From positions 1 through 29,295 of IMG/VR virus record IMGVR_UViG_3300021379_001475: a DNA stretch of 29,295 bases. The stretch is one strand, 5' to 3'. The stretch comes from a virus. The notes below the pieces were generated by a model. It was given only the letters and a program-made list of their open reading frames with translations, was not told the origin of the DNA and made no database searches. Positions 3,467 to 24,284 of this stretch are shown in pieces (positions within the stretch are counted from its first letter, which is position 1; every line of letters starts with the position of its first letter). A program made the position numbers and the translations under genes.

Positions 3467-6400
3467 TTATTCTAAAGCATTTTGACAATTTTCACAAGCA
3501 GTGTTGTCTCCAGATGCAGTAAATGTACTATCAAAATCACATGTACCATATTCTGAATTATTATTGTAAGCATTTACTGATGAGCATGATATTACTGTAA
3601 AACATCTTGAATCAGAATTAGCCCAAGTACAATCTCCATCAGCACTCACTAAAGGAGCTCCTGTATTAACTAAACCAACGACACTACCAATGGCTAAATC
3701 ACCGCAACCTTTTGTAGCTATCTTAGCAAAGAACCTTTGTGGTGTTGGTGCTCCCGGTGTACATGACATAGTTCCTCCTGTACAGTAATGAATTTCATAT
3801 ACTGAACATACAGCATCATCACAATCTGATTCTAACGTTGCATTATCAAATGCTACTGTTGCGGCCTCAGCAACATCAAGCGCTACTATTGTATAACACA
3901 CTTCTTTTGTAGGTTTACCATAAGTAGAGTAATATGTTTCACCTACTTGAGGATTAGGTGGCGCTCCTGGTATATTTGACCAGTTTACAAATGCAATCTC
4001 TTCACCTCCACAATATTGAATTCTATGAACTTCATTTGGTGCAGCTGAAAAAGGATATTGATCATCACATCCTTTTACTGATTTAATAACTAAATCTTTA
4101 ACTTCAGGATTAATTGTAGAAGTTAACAAATCTGTTGATTGATCTAATAAAAAGAACATTCTAGAATCAGCAGATGAAGAAGATTGATATCCAATATCAA
4201 ACAATGGTTTAATTGCTGTACCAGCACCTGTAGTAGCTCCTTGATAAGGATTAGCAGTACCTAAGCCTTGCATTATAAATCCACTTACATCAATAGCTGT
4301 TTGAACACCATATTTAACTGGTGGTATTAATTCACCAGTGTAAGCACCTAATGATTGCAATATAAATGCAGCATCAGCACCTGTTGATTGATTATCAGTA
4401 AAAGAAAGTAAAACATGCTCAATACCTTGATCAAATACTGGACTTGTAATACCTAATCCTTGTGCCCAAACACTAACAGCAGTACCTTCAACAACATCAG
4501 ATAAAGTTTCATAGTCTTCTTTATATTCTACAGTTGGTTGATTTGTAAATCCATTTGCTAAGGTAGCATCATGATAATTAGTAGAAGCATCTTTACTTAT
4601 AACTAAAACCCAAGCAGCATTTTTAGATGTTAAACCACCAGGTGTTGCCCATGAAGCGGGTGTATTTTCAATAGCTTGCCATGTTGCATCTGGACTTTGA
4701 ACATAACTAGCACCATTATCTACCACTGCTTTATGATAACTTAACCACCTTTTAGAAGCAGTTGGTAATACATAAAAGTTACCAGTCCAGTTAAATCCAT
4801 CTGGTGCACCTCCTCCAAATTGAGCGGCTAATTGAAGTTTTAAAGAATTAACACTATTTATTGTAGTAATATTATTTCCAAGACTTAATGTATCAACAAA
4901 CATGTAAATATCTTGATCATTATATCTAAGACCAATATCACATGGGATAATTTGTACTTGAATAGTATAAGTACTAGAACTACATTCTCCTTGAACATCA
5001 GATGCTATTGTTACCTGGAATGTATCAGCATAGTTTTTATTTAAATTACCTAAGTTTGTATATGTAATTCGATTACCTGGAGCTGTAGGTGTTCCTATAT
5101 TTGTAAGAACTGCTGTACCTGAAGCTGGATTTTGTGATATAGTTATTGTTGGGCTACCATCACCTAATACATATGGTAAATCAATTTTTTTAACATTACC
5201 TTCTCCACAGAAAGCTCTAAAGTTATCTGTAAGAATAAATGCAGGACATGTACAGCATAAAACAACTTTCACTGGTCCCGCTGATGTCCAACATACATAT
5301 AAATATCTTATTGTTCCTTGTGTATCTACTTTACCTACAAAGTACCAGAATGCATCATAAGACGCTCCTGGTGCAGAATACTGAGTACCTTCACATTCTA
5401 AATATTGTCTTGCTACAAATACTCCTGCAGGTCTACCACCAGCATATTGACCAACATTTAAATTATCTGCTTCCTCTGGATCAGACATAATTTGATAAAC
5501 ATCAGTTGAGAAATCATATCTAATAATATATGGGGCTGATAAAGTTCCTCCTCCACAATCTTGTACAACTTTAAAATAAATAGATCCACTTGTTTGACCA
5601 GTAGCAAGAGATCTAGCTCCAGCACCACCTGATACACTACCTGTATAAATTAAACCATCTGTACTATATGATAAAGCATAAGTAGTACCGCTACCAACAA
5701 CTGTACAAGTTACTGTGCCTCCAGCCGAAACTGCAACAGTATTAACTTCTGGTGCTGCACAAGCTGGTGTACCTTGAAAATCTTCATGTATTGTTCCTGT
5801 ATTACCTTGAAAAAGAGGAGTATTAAAATAAAATTCTTTATAACTAGCTTGCTCACCAGTAGTATCTCCATCATTACCTATATATATTGCACCAGCATCT
5901 TTAGTTGCACTTGTAGCTGTTGTTTCAGAAGAAATACATGTACTTCCAGGAACTTGGACTGTTTGAGCAGGACATGAAGAAAAAGCACCACCAGTAGAGA
6001 TGCTTACTATTACTTCATATGTAACTCCTTGTGCTCCTCCAGAAAAAGTTTGGCTAATAGATATTGGTGGATTATTAATTGTTGCCGTACCTAATTGCGC
6101 TTGAGTTTGTTGATTAATTACATCTATTTGATATGTAACAGATCCTCCTAAAGTATTAGTAAAAGTAACACCAATATCTCCAGATGGTGTTGCTGATACA
6201 TTTATTACATTTGGGCATGGTGCTCCAAGAGGTACAATCTGTGTTGTACTACTTGTACAATCTGAAGAACCATCAGTAATACATGCATTTACAGTTAAAG
6301 TTAAAGGTCCGTACACATCCAAATTTGTATTTGATAATGTAATAGTAACCGGTCCTGCTCCTGATGCTGATGGAACTATTTGGAAGTTAGTTGTAATACT

Positions 6401-7408
6401 ACTTCCATTTTGATCTGTTGTAGTAATTGTGTTTCCAGAACAATCACTAAATCCGTTTGGTATACTACTGTTAATAAAATTAATTTCTAAAGATGTTGGA
6501 ATACCATTGCCATCTGTAATAACTTGATGTGTATAAGATACTTGATAACCATCACAACCACTATCACAACAATTATTTTGTATATCTGTTACAGCTTGAT
6601 ATAAATCACATAATACAATCCACTGATTTTGATTTATCTCAGCTAGTGTACTTGGATTTGCTTGCCATCCTGTAATATTTCCATAATTACCAGCAGAACC
6701 TGATAATGTTGGACTTGCAGCAGTTAGACATTGAGAAACAATTGCTGCATTTATTTGAGTAACTGTACCAATGACATTTCTTAATTCACAAAACTGAGTC
6801 TCAAGAGCTAAAACTAATGTAGATATAGCAACTGTCTGCCCTTGACCTTGGTTATCTAAAAATAAACATGATGAGGTTACATCAAAATCTGATGGTCCGC
6901 TTGGTGTACATGGTAATACACAATTTTCTAAAACAACTATTCTTTGCTCTAAATTAATTAGATCTTGATTAAGCGTTGTAATATCAGTTATTATACTACA
7001 TATTGTGTTACCTACTAATGTAGCCCAATCTACTAATGGTAGCTCTGTTACTATATTTCCAAGTTGATCTGAATACTGTAAGCATGTTGGAAGTGTTATA
7101 TCTGGTAAATCACCACCTTTATTATTTTGATCACATATATAATCAATGATTGCCTGTAAAGTTCCTACAAGTTCTAAATTTAATGGTTGATCTGGTAATA
7201 CACATTTTAAATCTAAACCTTCAAGATTAGGGTCACAATCACATGCTGCATCTAGAAGTTCACATAATTTTTCTGCTAACTTTGCAACAACATCACTTAT
7301 TGTATCACCATTACAAAGATCTATACAAGCTATATCTGGTCCTTGCCATATAACACAGTTAGATGAGATTGATGAACAAGGTGATGTATTTCCACTTACA
7401 GGTATCAT
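3467..7408 (-). CDS. Large Cys-rich multidomain tail fibre / receptor-binding protein (1313 aa)
   Basis: The N-terminus (about 1-95: NCVIWQGPDIACIDLCNGDT, then SDVVAKLAEKLCELLDAACDC) matches a virion-anchor motif I recall from fibre genes of Bacteroidota phages. Residues about 165-290 form a second Cys-containing helical segment. Several Ig/FN3-like beta domains follow (for example TYQIDVINQQTQAQLG and TITISQNPASGTAVL). About 825-1090 resembles a von Willebrand A-type fold, with IYMFVDTLSLG (DTLSL at about 839-843, a degenerate MIDAS) and AAWVLVISKDAS. The C-terminus holds two related modules (about 1126-1201 and 1204-1308), each with HRIQYCGG- or YEIHYCTGG-type starts and a CYTIV- or CFTVI-type strand. 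They end in paired cysteines. Cys-, Thr- and Gly-rich composition fits an extracellular fibre. The role in receptor recognition is inferred from architecture and from being the largest gene in the virion block. Confidence 0.75.
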   Translation of the reverse strand: MIPVSGNTSPCSSISSNCVIWQGPDIACIDLCNGDTISDVVAKLAEKLCELLDAACDCDPNLEGLDLKCVLPDQPLNLELVGTLQAIIDYICDQNNKGGDLPDITLPTCLQYSDQLGNIVTELPLVDWATLVGNTICSIITDITTLNQDLINLEQRIVVLENCVLPCTPSGPSDFDVTSSCLFLDNQGQGQTVAISTLVLALETQFCELRNVIGTVTQINAAIVSQCLTAASPTLSGSAGNYGNITGWQANPSTLAEINQNQWIVLCDLYQAVTDIQNNCCDSGCDGYQVSYTHQVITDGNGIPTSLEINFINSSIPNGFSDCSGNTITTTDQNGSSITTNFQIVPSASGAGPVTITLSNTNLDVYGPLTLTVNACITDGSSDCTSSTTQIVPLGAPCPNVINVSATPSGDIGVTFTNTLGGSVTYQIDVINQQTQAQLGTATINNPPISISQTFSGGAQGVTYEVIVSISTGGAFSSCPAQTVQVPGSTCISSETTATSATKDAGAIYIGNDGDTTGEQASYKEFYFNTPLFQGNTGTIHEDFQGTPACAAPEVNTVAVSAGGTVTCTVVGSGTTYALSYSTDGLIYTGSVSGGAGARSLATGQTSGSIYFKVVQDCGGGTLSAPYIIRYDFSTDVYQIMSDPEEADNLNVGQYAGGRPAGVFVARQYLECEGTQYSAPGASYDAFWYFVGKVDTQGTIRYLYVCWTSAGPVKVVLCCTCPAFILTDNFRAFCGEGNVKKIDLPYVLGDGSPTITISQNPASGTAVLTNIGTPTAPGNRITYTNLGNLNKNYADTFQVTIASDVQGECSSSTYTIQVQIIPCDIGLRYNDQDIYMFVDTLSLGNNITTINSVNSLKLQLAAQFGGGAPDGFNWTGNFYVLPTASKRWLSYHKAVVDNGASYVQSPDATWQAIENTPASWATPGGLTSKNAAWVLVISKDASTNYHDATLANGFTNQPTVEYKEDYETLSDVVEGTAVSVWAQGLGITSPVFDQGIEHVLLSFTDNQSTGADAAFILQSLGAYTGELIPPVKYGVQTAIDVSGFIMQGLGTANPYQGATTGAGTAIKPLFDIGYQSSSSADSRMFFLLDQSTDLLTSTINPEVKDLVIKSVKGCDDQYPFSAAPNEVHRIQYCGGEEIAFVNWSNIPGAPPNPQVGETYYSTYGKPTKEVCYTIVALDVAEAATVAFDNATLESDCDDAVCSVYEIHYCTGGTMSCTPGAPTPQRFFAKIATKGCGDLAIGSVVGLVNTGAPLVSADGDCTWANSDSRCFTVISCSSVNAYNNNSEYGTCDFDSTFTASGDNTACENCQNALE

Positions 7409-15936: not shown

Positions 15937-18690
15937 TTATTTATCATCTTTTTTGCCAGGTTTCACGTCATATTTATTTTTATTTTCCCTAGCTATTTGT
16001 AGATTTTTTTCAGCTACATCTCTTTGTGCAGCAATTTTTTCTCTATCAACTTGCATTTTGTCTCTATCTAGTGTTGATTTCATAGCAAATTGATCTCTTT
16101 TCATATTCATTTGTTCTTGATATTGAGATGATTGCTGTATTTTTTCTAAACTATCTACATAATCAGATTGCAAATTTTGATTAATATCTTGCATAGCCCC
16201 ATAACCAGCAGCTCTAATTTCTGCAACAGTAATATCTTTTTGTCTTTCTTTATCATTTTCTTGCTGCTCAAACTGAAGTTTCATTTGTTCTTCTTGTTGT
16301 TTAGCTTGTAATTGCTCTTGCTGCATTTGTTGTTGCTGTTGCATTTCTTGCTGTCTTTGTGCAAGTTGCTTAGTTTCAGCATCTTTAAGTATATCAGAAA
16401 CCTCAGCAATAGATTCTGCTTTTATTATATTACCAAGATCATATATACTAGCTCCAGTAGTATTATTAGTTAGAGCCATTTGTTTTAATTGATCTAATAT
16501 TGCTCTATGATTTGTACGTGTTGTAGCAAATACATTAAAGTCTCTAAGTAATAGATCAGTACCATTTATAGTAAAGTTTACTTTTTCAGCTTCAGATGAT
16601 ATATATTGTAATCTTAAACTTGGATTTGAGCTATAATAAAATTGAGCTAGATCTGTTCTCATTTGATGTACTCTTGGCATTAAGTTATCAGAGTGTTGTG
16701 TAAAATATGTTTCTGTTTGCGCATATGATTGATTTAAAGCTTGTGTAACACCTGTAGCAGTTTGTTGAGAAACAGGAGCGCCAAGTCTTTGAGGATTTAC
16801 ACCAATTGAATCAAATGCCTGTTGTTTAAAATAGTTTGCTAATTGAATTCTTGACATTAATCTACCCGTTTGCTCCATATTAAGAGTTTGGTAATGATTG
16901 AAGTTTGTTGCATTTTCCGTATTAGTGATAGAAGTATCTAAAGGTAACATCTGAAAATCTTTCATTGCTACATATGCCTTAGCATAATTATTTTTACCCC
17001 AATCTTCACCCATAGAATGTCTTGGTAATGCATTCTGATCAAACATAATCACTGTACCAAGTTCATCTACTAATATATCCGCAATTTGATTATTTACCAT
17101 ATTATATCCTACCTGATATGCCTTCATAAGATCTACTAAAGAAGTTGATCTTGTGTTTCTATCTGAGAATACTCTTCCTTCTACAGGAAGTTTACACCCA
17201 TAAAGTGTATTATTACCTTTAAACTGGAAAGGAACTCTTCCAGGTTTAGTTCTATTTATACCTACATATATAGGATTTATATTTTCACCTATATTAGATC
17301 TCCAGAAAGCAGGTAAGTTTGGACCTATTTTTACACCACCCCATACTTCATTAATCCATATCCATTCTACATGCTCACCTTGTAATAAGTTTTCTTTCTT
17401 TTTATTTTTAAATATTGAAGTATCATATAAAGGCTTTTCTGTTATTTTATATGTTTCATCAATAATCTCTTGTATAATCTCTCCATCTTCTTTTATTCTT
17501 GTAAGGTGACCAACTTTTCTTTGAGTCTTCCAATAAACAGTGGTAACTCTCATAAGTTCTCCTTCACCCCAAGTTTGTACATCTTCTCCTTGATCTAAGA
17601 TCATACTTAAAATATCACCACCTTTTGCTGGATCATTAGACCAATTACTTACATATTGTCTATATCCAAGACCAGGCATGTTAGTGTTCCATTCATGAGA
17701 TCTTGAAGGATCATAATATGCACCATCATTTTGATATCCATTTACTTGGTACATTGCAGAACGTGCTGGATAAATCTCTTGTAATGAATGAAGTTGTTTT
17801 TCAGTCATAAGATACCCATATTTGTCAATAACGTCTGCTACAGTCATTAAATCAACTTTACCAGCATAATTACCATCAGCTATATATCTTACATCCGGTG
17901 ACTTTTGGTAGAAAGTAAGAACAGGATTCCATAACTCAACATCATAATCATCCTCTAACATTTTAAAGTGCCAAAACTCTCTATCTGTAATAAGCATATC
18001 ACGGAAAGCTCTTTCCTCAAGTTCATGCATTTTGAATCTTTCTTCATCAACATTTAGCTGATGACTAGCCCATTCTTCAACTAAACTTCTATAATCTTTA
18101 GAAAAGAAGTCTTCAATTTCTGGTAATGATTTTAAATTTTGTGGAGAAAGTTCTTGTTGTGCTTCTTCTGAATCTAAAGATACGCCCATTTGTAACATTT
18201 TTGCAACAAGTTTTGCAGAAGCATCAGCTAATAAATTTTCTTCAACAAGCATTCTTTTTTGTTCAAGCATTTCATTGTATGATAAATCATCTACTGCTCT
18301 AAATTGAACCTTTGTAAATCTTTTAGAAAACTCACCACATAATACATTTATAACATTTGGAATAATTGGATAAAATTTTAACTCTAATGCTGAATCATCT
18401 TCTTTAGTTAAAACATCAATAAGATTACCCATCTCATTATCATCCTCAACTATGTAATCTGTCTTATCTATAATACCCTTTGCTAATTTATAGTTCTTAA
18501 GTAATTTTCTTGCATTATGTCTTAAAAACTCTAATCCTTGAAGTTCTAGCCAATCAATATTCCAAGCAGCCCAATCATCATCTTTTTTCTTACTAGGTAA
18601 AAACTGAATTGGTTGAGTCAAACTTGAAGAAGTAGGGTATCCTTCTCCCTTTGCTCCCGCTTTTAATTGCATTGCATTTAATACTTTCAT
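15937..18690 (-). CDS. Portal protein with long Q/K-rich coiled-coil tail (917 aa)
   Basis: Immediately downstream of the large terminase, of a size and layout typical of crAss-like portals. The body alternates helices and beta strands with Trp/Tyr-rich blocks (DREFWHFKMLEDDYDVELW, EHVEWIWINEVWGGVKIG). A helical stretch about 600-720 resembles the portal stem/crown (MEQTGRLMSRIQLANYF, QTATGVTQALNQSYAQTETYF). The last 160 residues are an exceptional Gln/Glu/Lys coiled coil (QQQQQMQQEQLQAK onward), ending KPGKKDDK, likely to project into the head. The portal forms the dodecameric DNA channel at one vertex and nucleates scaffold assembly. The 103-nt leader has a 7-bp hairpin and no strong promoter match. 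Confidence 0.85.
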   Translation of the reverse strand: MKVLNAMQLKAGAKGEGYPTSSSLTQPIQFLPSKKKDDDWAAWNIDWLELQGLEFLRHNARKLLKNYKLAKGIIDKTDYIVEDDNEMGNLIDVLTKEDDSALELKFYPIIPNVINVLCGEFSKRFTKVQFRAVDDLSYNEMLEQKRMLVEENLLADASAKLVAKMLQMGVSLDSEEAQQELSPQNLKSLPEIEDFFSKDYRSLVEEWASHQLNVDEERFKMHELEERAFRDMLITDREFWHFKMLEDDYDVELWNPVLTFYQKSPDVRYIADGNYAGKVDLMTVADVIDKYGYLMTEKQLHSLQEIYPARSAMYQVNGYQNDGAYYDPSRSHEWNTNMPGLGYRQYVSNWSNDPAKGGDILSMILDQGEDVQTWGEGELMRVTTVYWKTQRKVGHLTRIKEDGEIIQEIIDETYKITEKPLYDTSIFKNKKKENLLQGEHVEWIWINEVWGGVKIGPNLPAFWRSNIGENINPIYVGINRTKPGRVPFQFKGNNTLYGCKLPVEGRVFSDRNTRSTSLVDLMKAYQVGYNMVNNQIADILVDELGTVIMFDQNALPRHSMGEDWGKNNYAKAYVAMKDFQMLPLDTSITNTENATNFNHYQTLNMEQTGRLMSRIQLANYFKQQAFDSIGVNPQRLGAPVSQQTATGVTQALNQSYAQTETYFTQHSDNLMPRVHQMRTDLAQFYYSSNPSLRLQYISSEAEKVNFTINGTDLLLRDFNVFATTRTNHRAILDQLKQMALTNNTTGASIYDLGNIIKAESIAEVSDILKDAETKQLAQRQQEMQQQQQMQQEQLQAKQQEEQMKLQFEQQENDKERQKDITVAEIRAAGYGAMQDINQNLQSDYVDSLEKIQQSSQYQEQMNMKRDQFAMKSTLDRDKMQVDREKIAAQRDVAEKNLQIARENKNKYDVKPGKKDDK

Positions 18691-18793: not shown

Positions 18794-20977
18794 TCATCTT
18801 AAATTTTTAAAGCCTGATCTTTTAACTTTTTTAAGTGTACTTTTATTACGTCCAATGTTTTTAAATGGACTATATTTTAATTTATACAAATTTTGTGAAT
18901 TTTCCAAAGAAAAATGCGTATCTGACTCTTTTCTTTTGTTATATCCTCTATTTGCTTGCTGAATCTTAGCAAAAGCCACTAATGCTGAAAAAGCTACTAG
19001 TCTATCCACATTGACTCCCGGTTGATAAGCAATCATCTCTTTCAGTAACATTTGATCAGGTATTCTTGATATTCCTAAAATTTTATTTTTTACTTCTCCA
19101 TCTTCATCTAATTCATCATCTAATTCTTCACGTAAAAATTCTATTGCGTAAGATACTAAATGATTTTTAAATAATGTACCAGTATTTTTCCAACCGTATT
19201 CTTGATAAACATTTGAGTTAGAACCCAAATCTTTTAAAAACACCATTTGTTGTTTTGGTACTAAATATTTCTGTTTCTTTTTTGATATCATGTAGTTTAT
19301 AAAATGAGATATATTGTTCTCAACTACAGTCCATGCATTATACCATTCTATAATTTTTTCTAGTTGTTCATGTGTTTTATTTATATCATCATATCTTCCG
19401 CACCATGCTGCAACTATTTTATCTCTTTCTATAAAATGCTCTAAACCTGCAGATGTTTCTCTTGTAACTTCAACAGGATTTTTGTAAACAAATATACTAC
19501 ACAATGAATCAGATGTAGTTGTTTTACCTTCTGATACAGGGTCAATTGATGCATAGTACATACCAAATCCAGGATCTTTGACAGGTCTTTCCCATACAAC
19601 TAAACATCCACTTTTATCATGCATTTTTTTATCTACTGGAAATTTAGATATAGGAAGTTTTTTGCTTTTTCTTGCTATTATACCTTTTTCATCTTTTTCA
19701 AGTTCAATATGTTCATATAAATATTCTTTTTCTTCAATTCTCTTTAATTGACGAGATATAATAGCTTGAGGAAATATTGATTCCTTTCTATATGCAAATG
19801 CTTCTGCTATGTTTGTTGGTTTCTGTGATATTCTTAATTGATACTGTTCAGGAGTCAATTCATTCTTCCACTTTTCTCTTTCTTCTTTTATAGCTGTAAG
19901 GGCATCATCTATCTTTGAGTTACCATAATCATCAATGTAAGGAGGCATAGACCATTGTTCTGGAATAAATAATCCAGCTAATCCTATAGTACCGTCAGCA
20001 TCCATTAAATCTGTTTCTACAGCATATATATCATTACTTGTAGGATTCAATATCATTTCTTTTAAAGGGTTACATTGATCCAAATCACCAACAGAGCCTG
20101 CAGCAATAAATACACCTGTTGTCATCATGCCAGAACTCATTGCTGGTCTTAAGTATTCATATGTATCCATCATTTTAGGAGCAATACCAGCCTCTTCATG
20201 AAAAAAGAATGTAGTTGGTCCACCAACACCTGTAGTTGCATTTTTTTCAAATGATGCTCCTTGTATTTTTGATTTTAGACCTCTATTTGTTTTTCTATTA
20301 CCAACTCTTACTTCTATCTGCTGTTGCCATAATAAAACTTTTTCAGGGTTACTTGGTCTATACCAAGCAGTATGCTCATTAAGAAAGTCTTTATATTCAT
20401 TTAAAAATTTCCAAGAACCTTTATCATTTATATAGTCTTTAAGTGATGCACCTATTTTACAAACGCTACCTTCTTCAAACCAATACTGATTTATAAGCTT
20501 TGCCATATGAAAATATGATGACGCAATCTGTCTTTTCTTTAATATAGCACAATGTTTATTATTTAGCTCTGCTAACAATTCATATATTGCCATATGATAT
20601 TGAGCATCTCTTACTTTTGCAAAACCATATTTTTTTTCTTCTTTATCATATATTGGTAAAAAATTTAACCACATATAATAATCACGTGTCAAATACCAGA
20701 TGTCTTCTTTTGTTCTATATATAACACCCTCTCTACATTTTTGTTTTTCAGCATTCCAATAAGTTAAAAAATCTTTTGATTTGAAAGGGCTAGAGCAATA
20801 GAATCCTTCTTTATTAAATGTTCTTGCCTCTTTATTAAACTCAAAAGCAATTTCATTAAAATTATATTTACCCGGTTCTTTAAATATAGACTTTAAAAAT
20901 TCAGAAAATGATTCATCATCTTTAAACTTAGTTTCTTCCCACTTACCATTATTATATGTTGGTACTTCTCTTATCAT
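18794..20977 (-). CDS. terL: Terminase large subunit (ATPase-nuclease DNA packaging motor), 727 aa
   Basis: The ATPase half shows an atypical Walker A-like turn LKKRQIASS (146-154) after a buried strand, as in TerL proteins with K-x-R-Q motifs. It also has a Walker B strand ending in acidic residues, TFFFHEEAG (256-264), and a coupling motif FIAAGS (290-295). The nuclease half has the RNase H-like first Asp in YASIDPVSEGKT (475-486, Asp479), a second acidic site VVENN (551-555), and a C-terminal NVDRLVAFSALVAFA with the third Asp. Length fits crAss-like TerL. It packages DNA through the portal encoded next. It follows the co-chaperonin gene with an 8-nt gap. Identity is firm; which lineage needs a tree. 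Confidence 0.93.
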   Translation of the reverse strand: MIREVPTYNNGKWEETKFKDDESFSEFLKSIFKEPGKYNFNEIAFEFNKEARTFNKEGFYCSSPFKSKDFLTYWNAEKQKCREGVIYRTKEDIWYLTRDYYMWLNFLPIYDKEEKKYGFAKVRDAQYHMAIYELLAELNNKHCAILKKRQIASSYFHMAKLINQYWFEEGSVCKIGASLKDYINDKGSWKFLNEYKDFLNEHTAWYRPSNPEKVLLWQQQIEVRVGNRKTNRGLKSKIQGASFEKNATTGVGGPTTFFFHEEAGIAPKMMDTYEYLRPAMSSGMMTTGVFIAAGSVGDLDQCNPLKEMILNPTSNDIYAVETDLMDADGTIGLAGLFIPEQWSMPPYIDDYGNSKIDDALTAIKEEREKWKNELTPEQYQLRISQKPTNIAEAFAYRKESIFPQAIISRQLKRIEEKEYLYEHIELEKDEKGIIARKSKKLPISKFPVDKKMHDKSGCLVVWERPVKDPGFGMYYASIDPVSEGKTTTSDSLCSIFVYKNPVEVTRETSAGLEHFIERDKIVAAWCGRYDDINKTHEQLEKIIEWYNAWTVVENNISHFINYMISKKKQKYLVPKQQMVFLKDLGSNSNVYQEYGWKNTGTLFKNHLVSYAIEFLREELDDELDEDGEVKNKILGISRIPDQMLLKEMIAYQPGVNVDRLVAFSALVAFAKIQQANRGYNKRKESDTHFSLENSQNLYKLKYSPFKNIGRNKSTLKKVKRSGFKNLR

Positions 20978-20985
20978 TTAAATTA

Positions 20986-21252
20986 TCACTCATCAGATAT
21001 AATAGCAAAAATCATATCATTTGATATCAAAAAATGTTCTTCTTCATTATGTCTCATAGGTATTAGTCTTGCATCTTCTGAATACTTAACTGTATCACCT
21101 ACATTTATAAACTTAACATTCTCACCAACTGCTATAACATCAGCAACATATTCTTTTTTTGTTGAGGTTTTAACAATTTTTGTACCTGGAAAAAACTCAC
21201 TTGGTTTTTTTTCTTTTATTAGCAGTCTGCTTCCTATTGGTTTTACTTTCAT
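20986..21252 (-). CDS. GroES-like co-chaperonin (88 aa)
   Basis: The sequence follows the Cpn10 pattern along its whole length. It starts KPIGSRLLIKEKKPSE and has a mobile-loop region with GTKIV (about 23-27) before KKEYVADVIAVGENV. It then has NVGDTVKYSEDARLI and ends HFLISNDMIFAIISDE, matching the Cpn10 ending 'eyliv-eddIlAvi'. Such proteins (T4 gp31 is the classic phage case) replace host GroES to fold capsid protein in the GroEL chamber. Here it sits between the methyltransferase/small ORF and TerL, upstream of portal and capsid. The first codons are overlapped by the small ORF at 21197-21322. A true Cpn10 fold is very likely; the client is inferred. Confidence 0.8.
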   Translation of the reverse strand: MKVKPIGSRLLIKEKKPSEFFPGTKIVKTSTKKEYVADVIAVGENVKFINVGDTVKYSEDARLIPMRHNEEEHFLISNDMIFAIISDE

Positions 21253-21322
21253 TTTTTTTATTTTTTAGACTTTCTAAATCATCCCAATAAATAAATATAA
21301 AATCATTAGATGATTGTTTCAT
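21197..21322 (-). CDS. Overlapped small ORF between methyltransferase and co-chaperonin (41 aa)
   Basis: From ATG at 21322 the minus strand reads MKQSSNDFIFIYWDDLESLK, then NKKNESKTNRKQTANKRKKTK, to TGA at 21199-21197. Its ATG overlaps the methyltransferase stop as ATGA, the junction used by other genes here. Its basic C-terminal half lies inside the first 19 codons of the co-chaperonin gene in another frame. The 5' half fills what would otherwise be a 66-nt empty gap. An acidic/aromatic start with a Lys/Arg-rich tail would suit a nucleic acid or chaperone contact, but no family is known to me. Confidence 0.45.
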   Translation of the reverse strand: MKQSSNDFIFIYWDDLESLKNKKNESKTNRKQTANKRKKTK

Positions 21323-21828
21323 TTTTTTATTATTTTATTAAATCTATGTGGTTCTTTATTCCAAGTCACATTTAAAAATATTTGCTCATCAGGTTTTTGA
21401 TAAGCACTATTTGTTATAAAAACAGCACCTGGTTTCATATGCTCTATAACAAAATCAGGAAATTTTTCATCAAATAAACATGAATTAGAAAATATGTAAT
21501 CAGCTCTTTTAATATAATCTGTGTGTTTATATATATCATAATTAGCATATTCTAAAATTGCTGGAACATGACCTTGTCTATGAGCATATGCATGTACAAT
21601 TCTACATGCATCATATCTTTTTTTATCTTTTTCTATTCCCACTGATCTTATTCCAACTGCATCTCTTACTATTCTTGATATATATCCATAACCAGATCCT
21701 ATATCTAAAAAACTTTTAGCTTGGTGAGTTCTAATATCACCTATAAGATCTAAAATACCTTGAAACGTAAGTTCACCATACCCTCTTGATTTATCCCAGG
21801 TTTTTCTATTTTGCGTTTTCATCTCCAC
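21319..21828 (-). CDS. DOT1-like class I SAM methyltransferase (169 aa)
   Basis: The SAM-binding Rossmann motif I is DIGSGYG (42-48), with the acidic ribose-binding end of strand 2 at GIEKD (64-68). Ahead of it is RGYGELTFQGILDLIGDI (15-32), like the 'VYGET-F--V--MIDEI' block of DOT1 histone-lysine methyltransferases. After it, YIFSNSCLFDEKFPDFV (111-127) and MKPGAVFITNS (131-141) match the DOT1 'VIFVNNFAFG ... MK-GGRIVSSK' pattern. No DNA-methylase (D/N)PP(Y/F) motif is present, which argues for a protein or other non-DNA substrate. It overlaps the 22057 gene and the small ORF. The substrate is unknown; candidates include the phage's own Lys-rich proteins. Confidence 0.75.
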   Translation of the reverse strand: MEMKTQNRKTWDKSRGYGELTFQGILDLIGDIRTHQAKSFLDIGSGYGYISRIVRDAVGIRSVGIEKDKKRYDACRIVHAYAHRQGHVPAILEYANYDIYKHTDYIKRADYIFSNSCLFDEKFPDFVIEHMKPGAVFITNSAYQKPDEQIFLNVTWNKEPHRFNKIIKK

Positions 21829-22057
21829 TTTGATTTTCTTCAGAACTTTTGAAGTATTTATTAATTGTTTCTAATTTATCATCAGCATCAGATAATAAAG
21901 ACAAAGCTTTTTCTGCATCACCAATAAGATCATCAAAACTATGATCTCCTACACCAACAGCATTTGTAGTTAATAATTCTAATGTTAATAATGCTTTTTC
22001 TTTATCTGCATGAGCTTTTGCTGCTAATGCGCTTGCTAATCTTGTTCCTATAGCCAT
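21806..22057 (-). CDS. Small helical protein of unknown function (83 aa)
   Basis: It is nearly all helix: an Ala/Leu-rich N-terminal helix (TRLASALAAKAHADKEKALL), a GVGDHSFDD turn, a second amphipathic helix and an acidic hydrophilic tail ending in TAG. It has no Cys, signal or TM segment. The stop overlaps the methyltransferase start by 23 nt, so the two are probably translated together. A partner or subunit of the methyltransferase is possible but untested; a small virion or terminase-small-like role cannot be excluded. Confidence 0.6.
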   Translation of the reverse strand: MAIGTRLASALAAKAHADKEKALLTLELLTTNAVGVGDHSFDDLIGDAEKALSLLSDADDKLETINKYFKSSEENQSGDENAK

Positions 22058-22076: not shown

Positions 22077-22595
22077 TTATAATTGATCATAAGCAAGTCC
22101 TTGTCCACCACGGACAGAACTTTCTTGTTCTTGTTTCATATCACTAAATGCGCCTTTGTATGAGTTTCTAATCTGCTCAAACTTTGCAGCAGCATTTACT
22201 AATGAGTTAATATTTCCATCTCTACCATGCTCAATTTGAGTATGCTCCATATATGTTGCTAATCTATCAAGCATTGATTTAATACCTTTATATGCTCTAT
22301 ATGTAGGGGTTTCATATAGCTTTTTACACATGGTAAGACCCATCTGTATTTTACCATCTTCAGTTGATTCCTCTAAACCTATTTCATTTATTATAATATC
22401 CTCTTTCTCATGTTCTGGTAAATTAAAAAAAGGATTCAAATCTGGATTCGGACAAGTCATATAAAATAAATAACAATAGATTTGTAAGTGCGTATCAGGA
22501 TATTCATCCATAATTTCTTTTAAAAAATTTAATGTATAGCAATGCTCAGTAGGAATTACTTTTCCGTTCTGTATATCAAATAATCTTGTTATCAT
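22077..22595 (-). CDS. Conserved helical phage protein (172 aa)
   Basis: Conserved-looking blocks are EHCYTLNFLKEIMDEYPDTH (17-36), a Tyr/Phe-rich YLFYMTCPNPDLNPFFNLPE, and a C-terminal ETPTYRAYKGIKSMLDRLA then EHGRDGNINSLVNAAAKFEQ. I recall these blocks in Bacteroidota phages near terminase genes, with no assigned function. It is soluble and largely helical. It overlaps the nuclease gene upstream by 4 nt (ATGA) and is followed after 19 nt by the helical 83-aa gene. A terminase small subunit would fit the position, but I see no helix-turn-helix, so I leave this open. Confidence 0.6.
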   Translation of the reverse strand: MITRLFDIQNGKVIPTEHCYTLNFLKEIMDEYPDTHLQIYCYLFYMTCPNPDLNPFFNLPEHEKEDIIINEIGLEESTEDGKIQMGLTMCKKLYETPTYRAYKGIKSMLDRLATYMEHTQIEHGRDGNINSLVNAAAKFEQIRNSYKGAFSDMKQEQESSVRGGQGLAYDQL

Positions 22596-23621: not shown

Positions 23622-23928
23622 TTTCCATTAGTTGTTCATTTAATAAATCTTCTTCTTCTTCAGTTAATAATGCAGGCCATTTACCTTGAGGACATTCTGA
23701 TGAAAGAGATCTAGTTTTTAGACTTAAACTACATCCACAATCAGAGCAACATGGTTGTGTTCCTGGAACTAAACATTTTGATCCTTTGGTGTCTAAATGA
23801 TTACAAGTATTACATACTTCCATCCTTAGATTTGCTTCTGCTTCAATATGCTCTTGTTTAAAGATTCTGTTTTTAAAACCTTCTAATATTTGTTTACTAG
23901 ACTTAAGTGCTCTTAAATATTTATTCAT
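23599..23928 (-). CDS. Eight-cysteine zinc-ribbon-like protein (109 aa)
   Basis: A helical N-terminus (MNKYLRALKSSKQILEGF) is followed by a cysteine cluster at 39, 42, 52, 60, 61, 64, 66 and 79: EVCNTCNHLD, KCLVPGTQPCCSDCGCSLS, SSECPQGKWP. The arrangement could hold two zinc ions. The C-terminus is acidic (LTEEEEDLLNEQLMENGKEE). I recall this 'CCx2CGCSLSLK-R-LS-xCPxGKW' pattern in phages of Bacteroidota, always unannotated. It overlaps the IHF-like gene as ATGA and the 76-aa gene by 23 nt. A small nucleic-acid-binding or virion-associated protein is most plausible. Confidence 0.65.
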   Translation of the reverse strand: MNKYLRALKSSKQILEGFKNRIFKQEHIEAEANLRMEVCNTCNHLDTKGSKCLVPGTQPCCSDCGCSLSLKTRSLSSECPQGKWPALLTEEEEDLLNEQLMENGKEENT

Positions 23929-24284
23929 TTCTTATTAGCTTTAAATTTTTTCTTTTCTTCTAGTAATTTATTACACATATCTAACATATTTTCCATCTTA
24001 TCAATTTTGTCTTGTATAGTAAGATGTTTTTCATAACCATTAATTGTATTTTTAGTTATGTTTCCTAAATAACTTTTATTCTTTTTTATATTTTTTTCAA
24101 GTCTTACTTTTCTAATTGTAAATGTTCCTAGTCCAGTTATATTAATATTAGGATGCGTAAGATCAGATAAATTTTTTCTAACTTTTCCATAATAAAAAGT
24201 TACAAGATCATCTACAACATTTTCATGAACACCCACTTCATCAGCTATTCCTTCTTTAAATATTTTATAACTTTTAGGATTCAC
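23925..24284 (-). CDS. HU/IHF-like DNA-binding protein (119 aa)
   Basis: The helical N-terminus (KSYKIFKEGIADEVGVHENV then VDDLVTFYYGKVRKNLSDL) is followed by the hallmark strand ITGLGTFTIRKVRLEKN (about 49-65), equivalent to the HU/IHF 'I-GFGtF-vR-R' turn. A basic arm region follows (KNIKKNKSYLGNIT), and the C-terminus is a Lys-rich helix. HU/IHF proteins bend or coat DNA. Phages of the crAss-like group carry one or two copies near structural or packaging genes (recollection). Here it lies beside a possible winged-helix protein and upstream of a nuclease and terminase, so roles in DNA condensation, packaging or late control are all reasonable. It overlaps the upstream gene by 11 nt. Confidence 0.8.
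   Translation of the reverse strand: MNPKSYKIFKEGIADEVGVHENVVDDLVTFYYGKVRKNLSDLTHPNINITGLGTFTIRKVRLEKNIKKNKSYLGNITKNTINGYEKHLTIQDKIDKMENMLDMCNKLLEEKKKFKANKK

Follow-up and report, generated by a model that had tools for sequence, protein, structure and literature searches.

The locus raises the question of what a DOT1-like gene does among the packaging genes of a bacteriophage; we know of no bacterial host with nucleosomes of the eukaryotic kind. The stretch analysed (the window) is a virus record of 29,295 bases. On its minus strand, an open reading frame of 169 aa at 21319..21828 is assigned, from the frame itself, Pfam, a prokaryotic profile and an AlphaFold2 model, to the DOT1-like class I SAM-dependent methyltransferases. 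It starts with GTG at 21828 and stops at 21319; an in-frame ATG two codons after the GTG is an equally good start. An earlier note had placed a class I methyltransferase of the DOT1 type within a phage packaging operon, and Pfam, the profile, the model and the neighbouring genes all agree with this.

The neighbourhood is that of a crAss-like phage. The minus strand carries the large terminase subunit (TerL; 18794..20977, phrog_6681, 246.7 bits, at 26-28% to crAss-like phages), the portal protein (15937..18690, phrog_6547, 323.1 bits) and an IHF/HU-like, Lys-rich protein (23925..24284), and the match of the major head protein (MCP) is phrog_11589. MCP, TerL, portal and IHF form a conserved block of crAss-like phages (PMC10136315), and here they lie in one stretch, as expected of Crassvirales. 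That an IHF-like, Lys-rich protein is encoded near the methyltransferase, as the earlier note had it, is supported by counterparts that sister phages carry in this position; two of them (L256 and L279) pass the Pfam cut-off for Bac_DNA_binding, the window copy itself being below it. The operon order p102, endolysin, p120, IHF, p109, exonuclease, p172, GroES, TerL, portal is kept among 80 TerL relatives.

The methyltransferase gene occupies a cargo slot in this order. One side of the slot is bounded by the conserved 172-aa operon protein p172 (22077..22595, minus strand), and the gene of an 83-aa protein (p83; 21806..22057, minus strand, phrog_1811) overlaps the methyltransferase start. The GroES-like co-chaperonin (20986..21252, minus strand; Cpn10 30.6 bits over a cut-off of 21.1) lies on the other side, and a 41-aa Lys-rich mini-ORF, 'YWDD' (21197..21322, minus strand), stands between it and the slot. 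The mini-ORF has a YWDD/YWDE core, overlaps the start of the GroES-like gene, is kept across most of the clade and is easily missed by gene callers. The GroES-like gene directly precedes the terminase, and a PhoH-type NTPase takes that place in the L205 clade (L205 7034-7696). A 1313-aa ORF was also observed downstream of the head genes (window 3467-7408, minus strand).

The three blocks for which the DOT1 assignment had been proposed are all present in the ORF, namely GYGELTF (residues 16-22), the SAM site DIGSGYG and the NSCLF/MKPGAVFITNS region (the latter block at residues 131-141), and the Pfam DOT1 match is over its cut-off. A fourth block goes beyond that proposal: VTW (154-156), aligned to DOT1 VSW. 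We compared the protein with the seven motifs of eukaryotic DOT1 as given in PMC10951340. Motif X (GYGE, residues 16-19, 21772..21783; VYGE in human DOT1L) keeps the catalytic glutamate, with V135 replaced by G; by alignment E19 is the counterpart of DOT1L E138, mutation of which abolishes activity (PMC10951340). Motif I (residues 42-48, 21685..21705) follows DLGSGxG with one conservative change of L to I, and motif II (GIE, residues 64-66, 21631..21639) follows GxE. Motif IV (NSCLF, residues 115-119, 21472..21486) keeps N, L and F of NNF(L/A)F, the second N and the first F being altered. Motif III, F(V/L), is absent, I99-Y100 after D98 occupying the aligned place, and so is motif VI, Gx6K, with S141 standing seven residues past G134. 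Motif VIII (VTWN, residues 154-157, 21358..21369) keeps V and the channel W of VSWT; close to the C-terminus, NVTWN of the phage is paired in the alignment, with no manual help, with the SVSWT of the human and yeast proteins.

The tryptophan of motif VIII lines the lysine channel of DOT1 (PMC10951340). Phage W156 aligns with W305 of human DOT1L, and the position is Trp in 55 of the 57 prokaryotic homologues; the spacing of 22 residues between YGE and the SAM motif is the same in phage, human and yeast. The channel that the earlier note had wished to see is partly conserved in terms of aligned residues: human V135/G137/F243/A244/W305 correspond to phage G/G/C/L/W, so that G137 and W305 are kept, and V135, F243 and A244 are changed.

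At the family level, DOT1 (PF08123) is the best Pfam match (31.8 bits, E 1.3e-7, curated gathering cut-off 23), and no other Pfam family exceeds its own cut-off for the 169-aa protein; the protein P0002 of a close relative scores 34.2 bits. PHROGs and NCBIfam give weak matches only, and a PDB profile search with the phage protein and one close relative ranks DOT1 chains at the top, weakly (E 0.034). To place the protein among prokaryotic sequences, genome contigs were scanned with a fixed-spacing pattern (YGE, 22 residues, DxG[ST]GxG), which gave more than 100 stretches among the matches listed. By later motifs, 87 proteins among the matches listed are DOT1-like, from Legionellaceae, Patescibacteria, Chlamydiota, Rickettsiales, Myxococcota and others; 17 matches that resemble ordinary methyltransferases and carry the pattern by chance served as controls.

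A profile was built from the 87 proteins, the phage being left out (E-values on a nominal database of 1000). Over the whole protein it gives 94.8 bits to human DOT1L, 74.8 to the yeast protein, 52.4-54.2 to the phage pair (52.4 to the phage protein itself) and 37.2 at most to the controls, a comparison that is conservative on the YGE/SAM pattern, since the controls were picked by that pattern, though they are few. With the sequence past motif I the values are 40.5 bits (human), 26.4 (yeast), 15.2-15.6 (phage pair, 15.6 for the phage protein itself) and 7.0 at most (controls). Identity of the phage protein to prokaryotic DOT1-like proteins is 13-23%. We regard membership in the DOT1-like family, taken in the broad sense, as highly probable.

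Within the family the position is peripheral. A maximum-likelihood tree puts the phage pair, with a branch length of 1.87, in a position intermediate between the controls and the whole set of DOT1-like proteins, outside the sampled DOT1s of eukaryotes and bacteria taken together (99/86). Long-branch effects may explain this position, and our claim is therefore limited to the statement that no close cellular source was found. A recent transfer from a eukaryote or from a single bacterial group was considered and is unsupported, the pair standing outside both on a long branch of unsure placement. Nor would we class it as an H3K79 DOT1 of the eukaryotic type: motifs III and VI are lacking, motif IV is altered, the nucleosome-reading parts are absent and the pair lies outside the sampled DOT1s. 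Motifs X, I, II, part of IV (N..LF) and VIII (V.W) are shared with eukaryotic DOT1/DOT1L (KMT4, H3K79), whereas the C-terminal extension, the motif VI lysine and the F131 position are not, and the stretch from motif VI to motif VIII is about 20 residues shorter in the phage; the N-terminal domain of eukaryotic DOT1 is absent from the 169-aa ORF. Prokaryotic DOT1-like proteins (PF08123; Legionella, Patescibacteria, Chlamydiia, Rickettsiales, Myxococcota; PDB 9ne1) have YGE, the 22-residue spacing, DxGSGxG, G[IV]E and the motif VIII W in common with the phage, but the bacterial ones found here mostly lie in frames of 200-250 aa, in which about 40-80 residues precede YGE. In the phage protein just 16 residues stand ahead of YGE and a C-terminal extension is lacking, so that it has no recognition domain.

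The AlphaFold2 model, built with 57 prokaryotic homologues, has a pLDDT of 88.3 and a pTM of 0.85 (a single-sequence model was poor, pLDDT 44.6, and was set aside). Counting Z-scores within 1 as ties, aKMT (5fa8; the highest Z, 16.4 across 145 residues, rmsd 2.7), 5bxy (15.9), bacterial DOT1L (15.8), yeast Dot1 (15.4), human DOT1L (15.2) and TbDOT1A (15.1) tie with other class I structures, and generic ones score alike (a putative O-methyltransferase 15.8, TTHA0928 15.6). The search of PDB folds with the predicted model alone thus cannot part DOT1 from other class I enzymes. For the structural comparison proposed in the earlier note, this means that no other family claims the protein firmly, and equally that other class I methyltransferases tie with DOT1. 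In BFVD the best match is a DOT1-domain protein of Hyperionvirus (A0A3G5AC17, E 1.1e-10), and another viral entry there, A0A516KYS0, has a predicted structure close to that of the phage protein; Hyperionvirus and the other giant viruses with DOT1 differ from the phage in infecting eukaryotes, hosts with histones.

In the model N115 immediately follows strand beta-4 (111-114), the position at which PrmA N191 and DOT1L N241 flank the substrate lysine (PMC10238732). DOT1L with the N241A change retains H3K79me2 production (PMC10951340), and many bacterial DOT1-like homologues have no Asn at this place; N115 is therefore supporting, not decisive.

The nearest functional parallel is the archaeal aKMT4 (Sulfolobus, 5fa8; relatives FAM173A/B), which at 161 aa against 169 is, like the phage protein, a bare catalytic core of about 160 aa with the seven-beta-strand fold. 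In sequence the phage protein is not closer to aKMT than to DOT1: aKMT has YVPT instead of YGE and no motif VIII W, both of which the phage has in the DOT1 form, and aKMT is missing from the PDB sequence matches down to E 1, and likewise from those of the two-sequence profile down to E 10, where DOT1 chains are present. The 18-kDa aKMT4 is a Dot1-like core without recognition domains, and the proteins that it methylates in vitro comprise chromatin proteins, exosome subunits, a ribosomal protein and MCM (PMC4639711). By analogy, we take it as the best working model for the phage enzyme.

The gene is rare. In the comparison of 80 close TerL relatives it was found in the window and in L001 only; a DOT1 match is absent from 49 other records searched whole, many of which are fragments. 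A protein scan of genome contigs with P0001 found no relative, and tblastn of P0001 and three bacterial DOT1-like proteins against a phage collection gave no match. Scans of viral sequences (A1, A2 and the YGE-F-SAM pattern) returned the known relative, one chance match (L084) and nothing further. The DOT1-like gene thus sits as a rare insert in the interval from p172/p83 to the GroES-like gene. Its two phage copies share 91% identity, with no difference in the aligned motifs or over the final 27 residues. Their dN/dS of 0.62 is the highest of the compared operon genes, at a dS of only 0.07 and with few changes; this hints, if weakly, at selection that is relaxed or diversifying, and constraint looks weak.

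What else enters this slot was surveyed in 146 loci having p172 and TerL together, several of which had been retrieved by searching with the SET protein. Apart from GroES or PhoH and p83, the interval holds only a few insertions longer than 100 aa: the DOT1-like gene (window and L001), a SET gene with a gene for a 209-aa protein (one clade), a 4HBT thioesterase (L008 3927-4337), a Core-2/I-branching glycosyltransferase (L074 1065-2723) and an unassigned protein (L257). The SET domain is a fold unrelated to DOT1 and is also typically a lysine methyltransferase. The 120-aa SET-domain protein lies in the slot in L047 (7265-7627) and L077 (5383-5745), with 40.2 and 30.3 bits against a Pfam cut-off of 22.4, and in their close relatives L200-L202. 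A protein of 209-211 aa with no family match accompanies it in every copy seen (L047 6639-7268; L077 4751-5386). Related small SET proteins lie in the packaging operon outside the slot, between the exonuclease and p172 in L205 (5971-6375) and upstream of TerL in L234 (3169-3561); the SET genes of L047, L077, L205 and L234 share the operon with the DOT1-like gene, and those of L047 and L077 the slot, but are not homologous to it. A second, distinct phage SET family ('YRPLPE...RTPLGGFINHSD') was found in phages related to these and in others: L013 (2975-3304), L059 (L293 1486-1812), L206 (5965-6264) and L207 (5959-6279).

Folds of lysine methyltransferases thus make up about two of five apparent types of slot insertion, a number too small for a statistical claim. 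Of the contextual evidence, the sharing of the slot by DOT1 and SET speaks most strongly for lysine as the target; since the slot also takes a thioesterase and a glycosyltransferase, it is suggestive only. A bolder reading would be that some crAss-like phages recurrently recruit protein-lysine methyltransferases of the unrelated DOT1-like and SET folds into the packaging operon, where both kinds would modify one shared late protein, such as the IHF-like chromatin protein; we consider this improbable as it stands. If true, the convergent recruitment would be a phage counterpart of chromatin methylation.

With modest confidence we presume that the gene encodes a minimal, divergent DOT1-like (KMT4-related, seven-beta-strand) core that acts late in infection as a protein-lysine methyltransferase similar to aKMT4; the lysine target, the late expression and the class of substrates are each what we infer. 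SAM would be held by motifs I and II beneath a lid made by the YGE loop, and lysines would enter past W156, where the methyl group would be passed from SAM to the side chains of one or more proteins, with a loose specificity like that of aKMT4. In crAss-like phages the genes for terminase and structural proteins belong to the late class (PMC10136315), and the position of the methyltransferase in an operon with them is why late expression is proposed: as accessory cargo it would be made at the same time as the IHF-like protein and the proteins of the virion. The likeliest substrates would be basic nucleic-acid-binding proteins of the phage or host. The IHF-like protein, the Lys-rich mini-ORF, virion proteins and host nucleic-acid-binding proteins are candidates, with none favoured, and we give a low probability to any one of them in particular. 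The link to IHF suggested in the earlier note gained no specific support, the IHF-like gene being conserved across the relatives and the DOT1 gene occurring in two records. The 'YWDD' mini-ORF as a substrate specific to methylase-bearing phages was rejected, since most of the clade has the mini-ORF but no methylase.

The alternative that deserves the most attention, although we consider it rather unlikely, is that a DOT1-like class I enzyme acts on RNA or a small molecule. Class I folds switch substrate easily, TrmR, O-methyltransferases and the annotated RNA methyltransferase 5bxy tie structurally with DOT1, and the best PHROG match is a tRNA methyltransferase (E 0.04). However, 5bxy is itself aKMT-like (1.8e-39 to aKMT) and its RNA label is unproven, neither it nor TrmR turns up when PDB sequences are searched with the phage protein to a limit of E 1, no RNA-binding addition is visible within 169 aa, and W156 and the sequence past motif I follow the DOT1-like proteins, not the controls. 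Methylation of another protein residue (glutamine, arginine or the N-terminus) seems less probable still. PRMT and HemK-type enzymes do appear among the weak sequence or structure matches, and an Asn ending beta-4 is not restricted to lysine methyltransferases; nonetheless, the sequence shows neither the NPPY motif of HemK nor a PRMT double-E loop, and the DOT1-specific YGE and VTW are present.

Location in the packaging operon, together with the fact that DNA methylases are common in phages, would suit an enzyme that counters host restriction. We believe this to be very improbable: no DNA methylase family is matched in Pfam, NCBIfam or PHROGs, and the protein has no space for a target-recognition domain. 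The earlier observation that a DNA-methylase catalytic motif is missing holds as well, NSCL occupying the aligned place and [DNS]PP[YFW] occurring nowhere in the sequence. The gene might instead be transient cargo on which selection hardly acts and which at present does nothing for the phage, as its presence in two records, with L001 the sole carrier among the 80 close TerL relatives, and the dN/dS between the copies would allow; yet both copies are intact with all DOT1 motifs of the phage form and an identical C-terminal end, and the few substitutions leave the ratio uncertain. We give little weight to this explanation, about as little as to that of another residue. The reading as a late lysine methyltransferase of the aKMT4 kind is the one that we retain.

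DOT1-like genes are known in eukaryotes, archaea, many bacteria and giant viruses and have been exchanged among these groups (PMC10117894). Our literature search, which was not exhaustive, found no description of such an enzyme in a tailed phage and no report of tests for methylation of late phage proteins, or of host proteins, in crAss-like phages. The kind of enzyme is already known; new here are a DOT1-like gene in a bacteriophage and the SET gene that takes its slot in other phages. Little work exists on protein-lysine methylation by phage-encoded enzymes, and a bare-core DOT1 branching outside the cellular forms in our sample is relevant to the origin of the family. Two unrelated folds of lysine methyltransferases in one slot provide a testable hint that late proteins of the phage, or proteins of its host, may be methylated.
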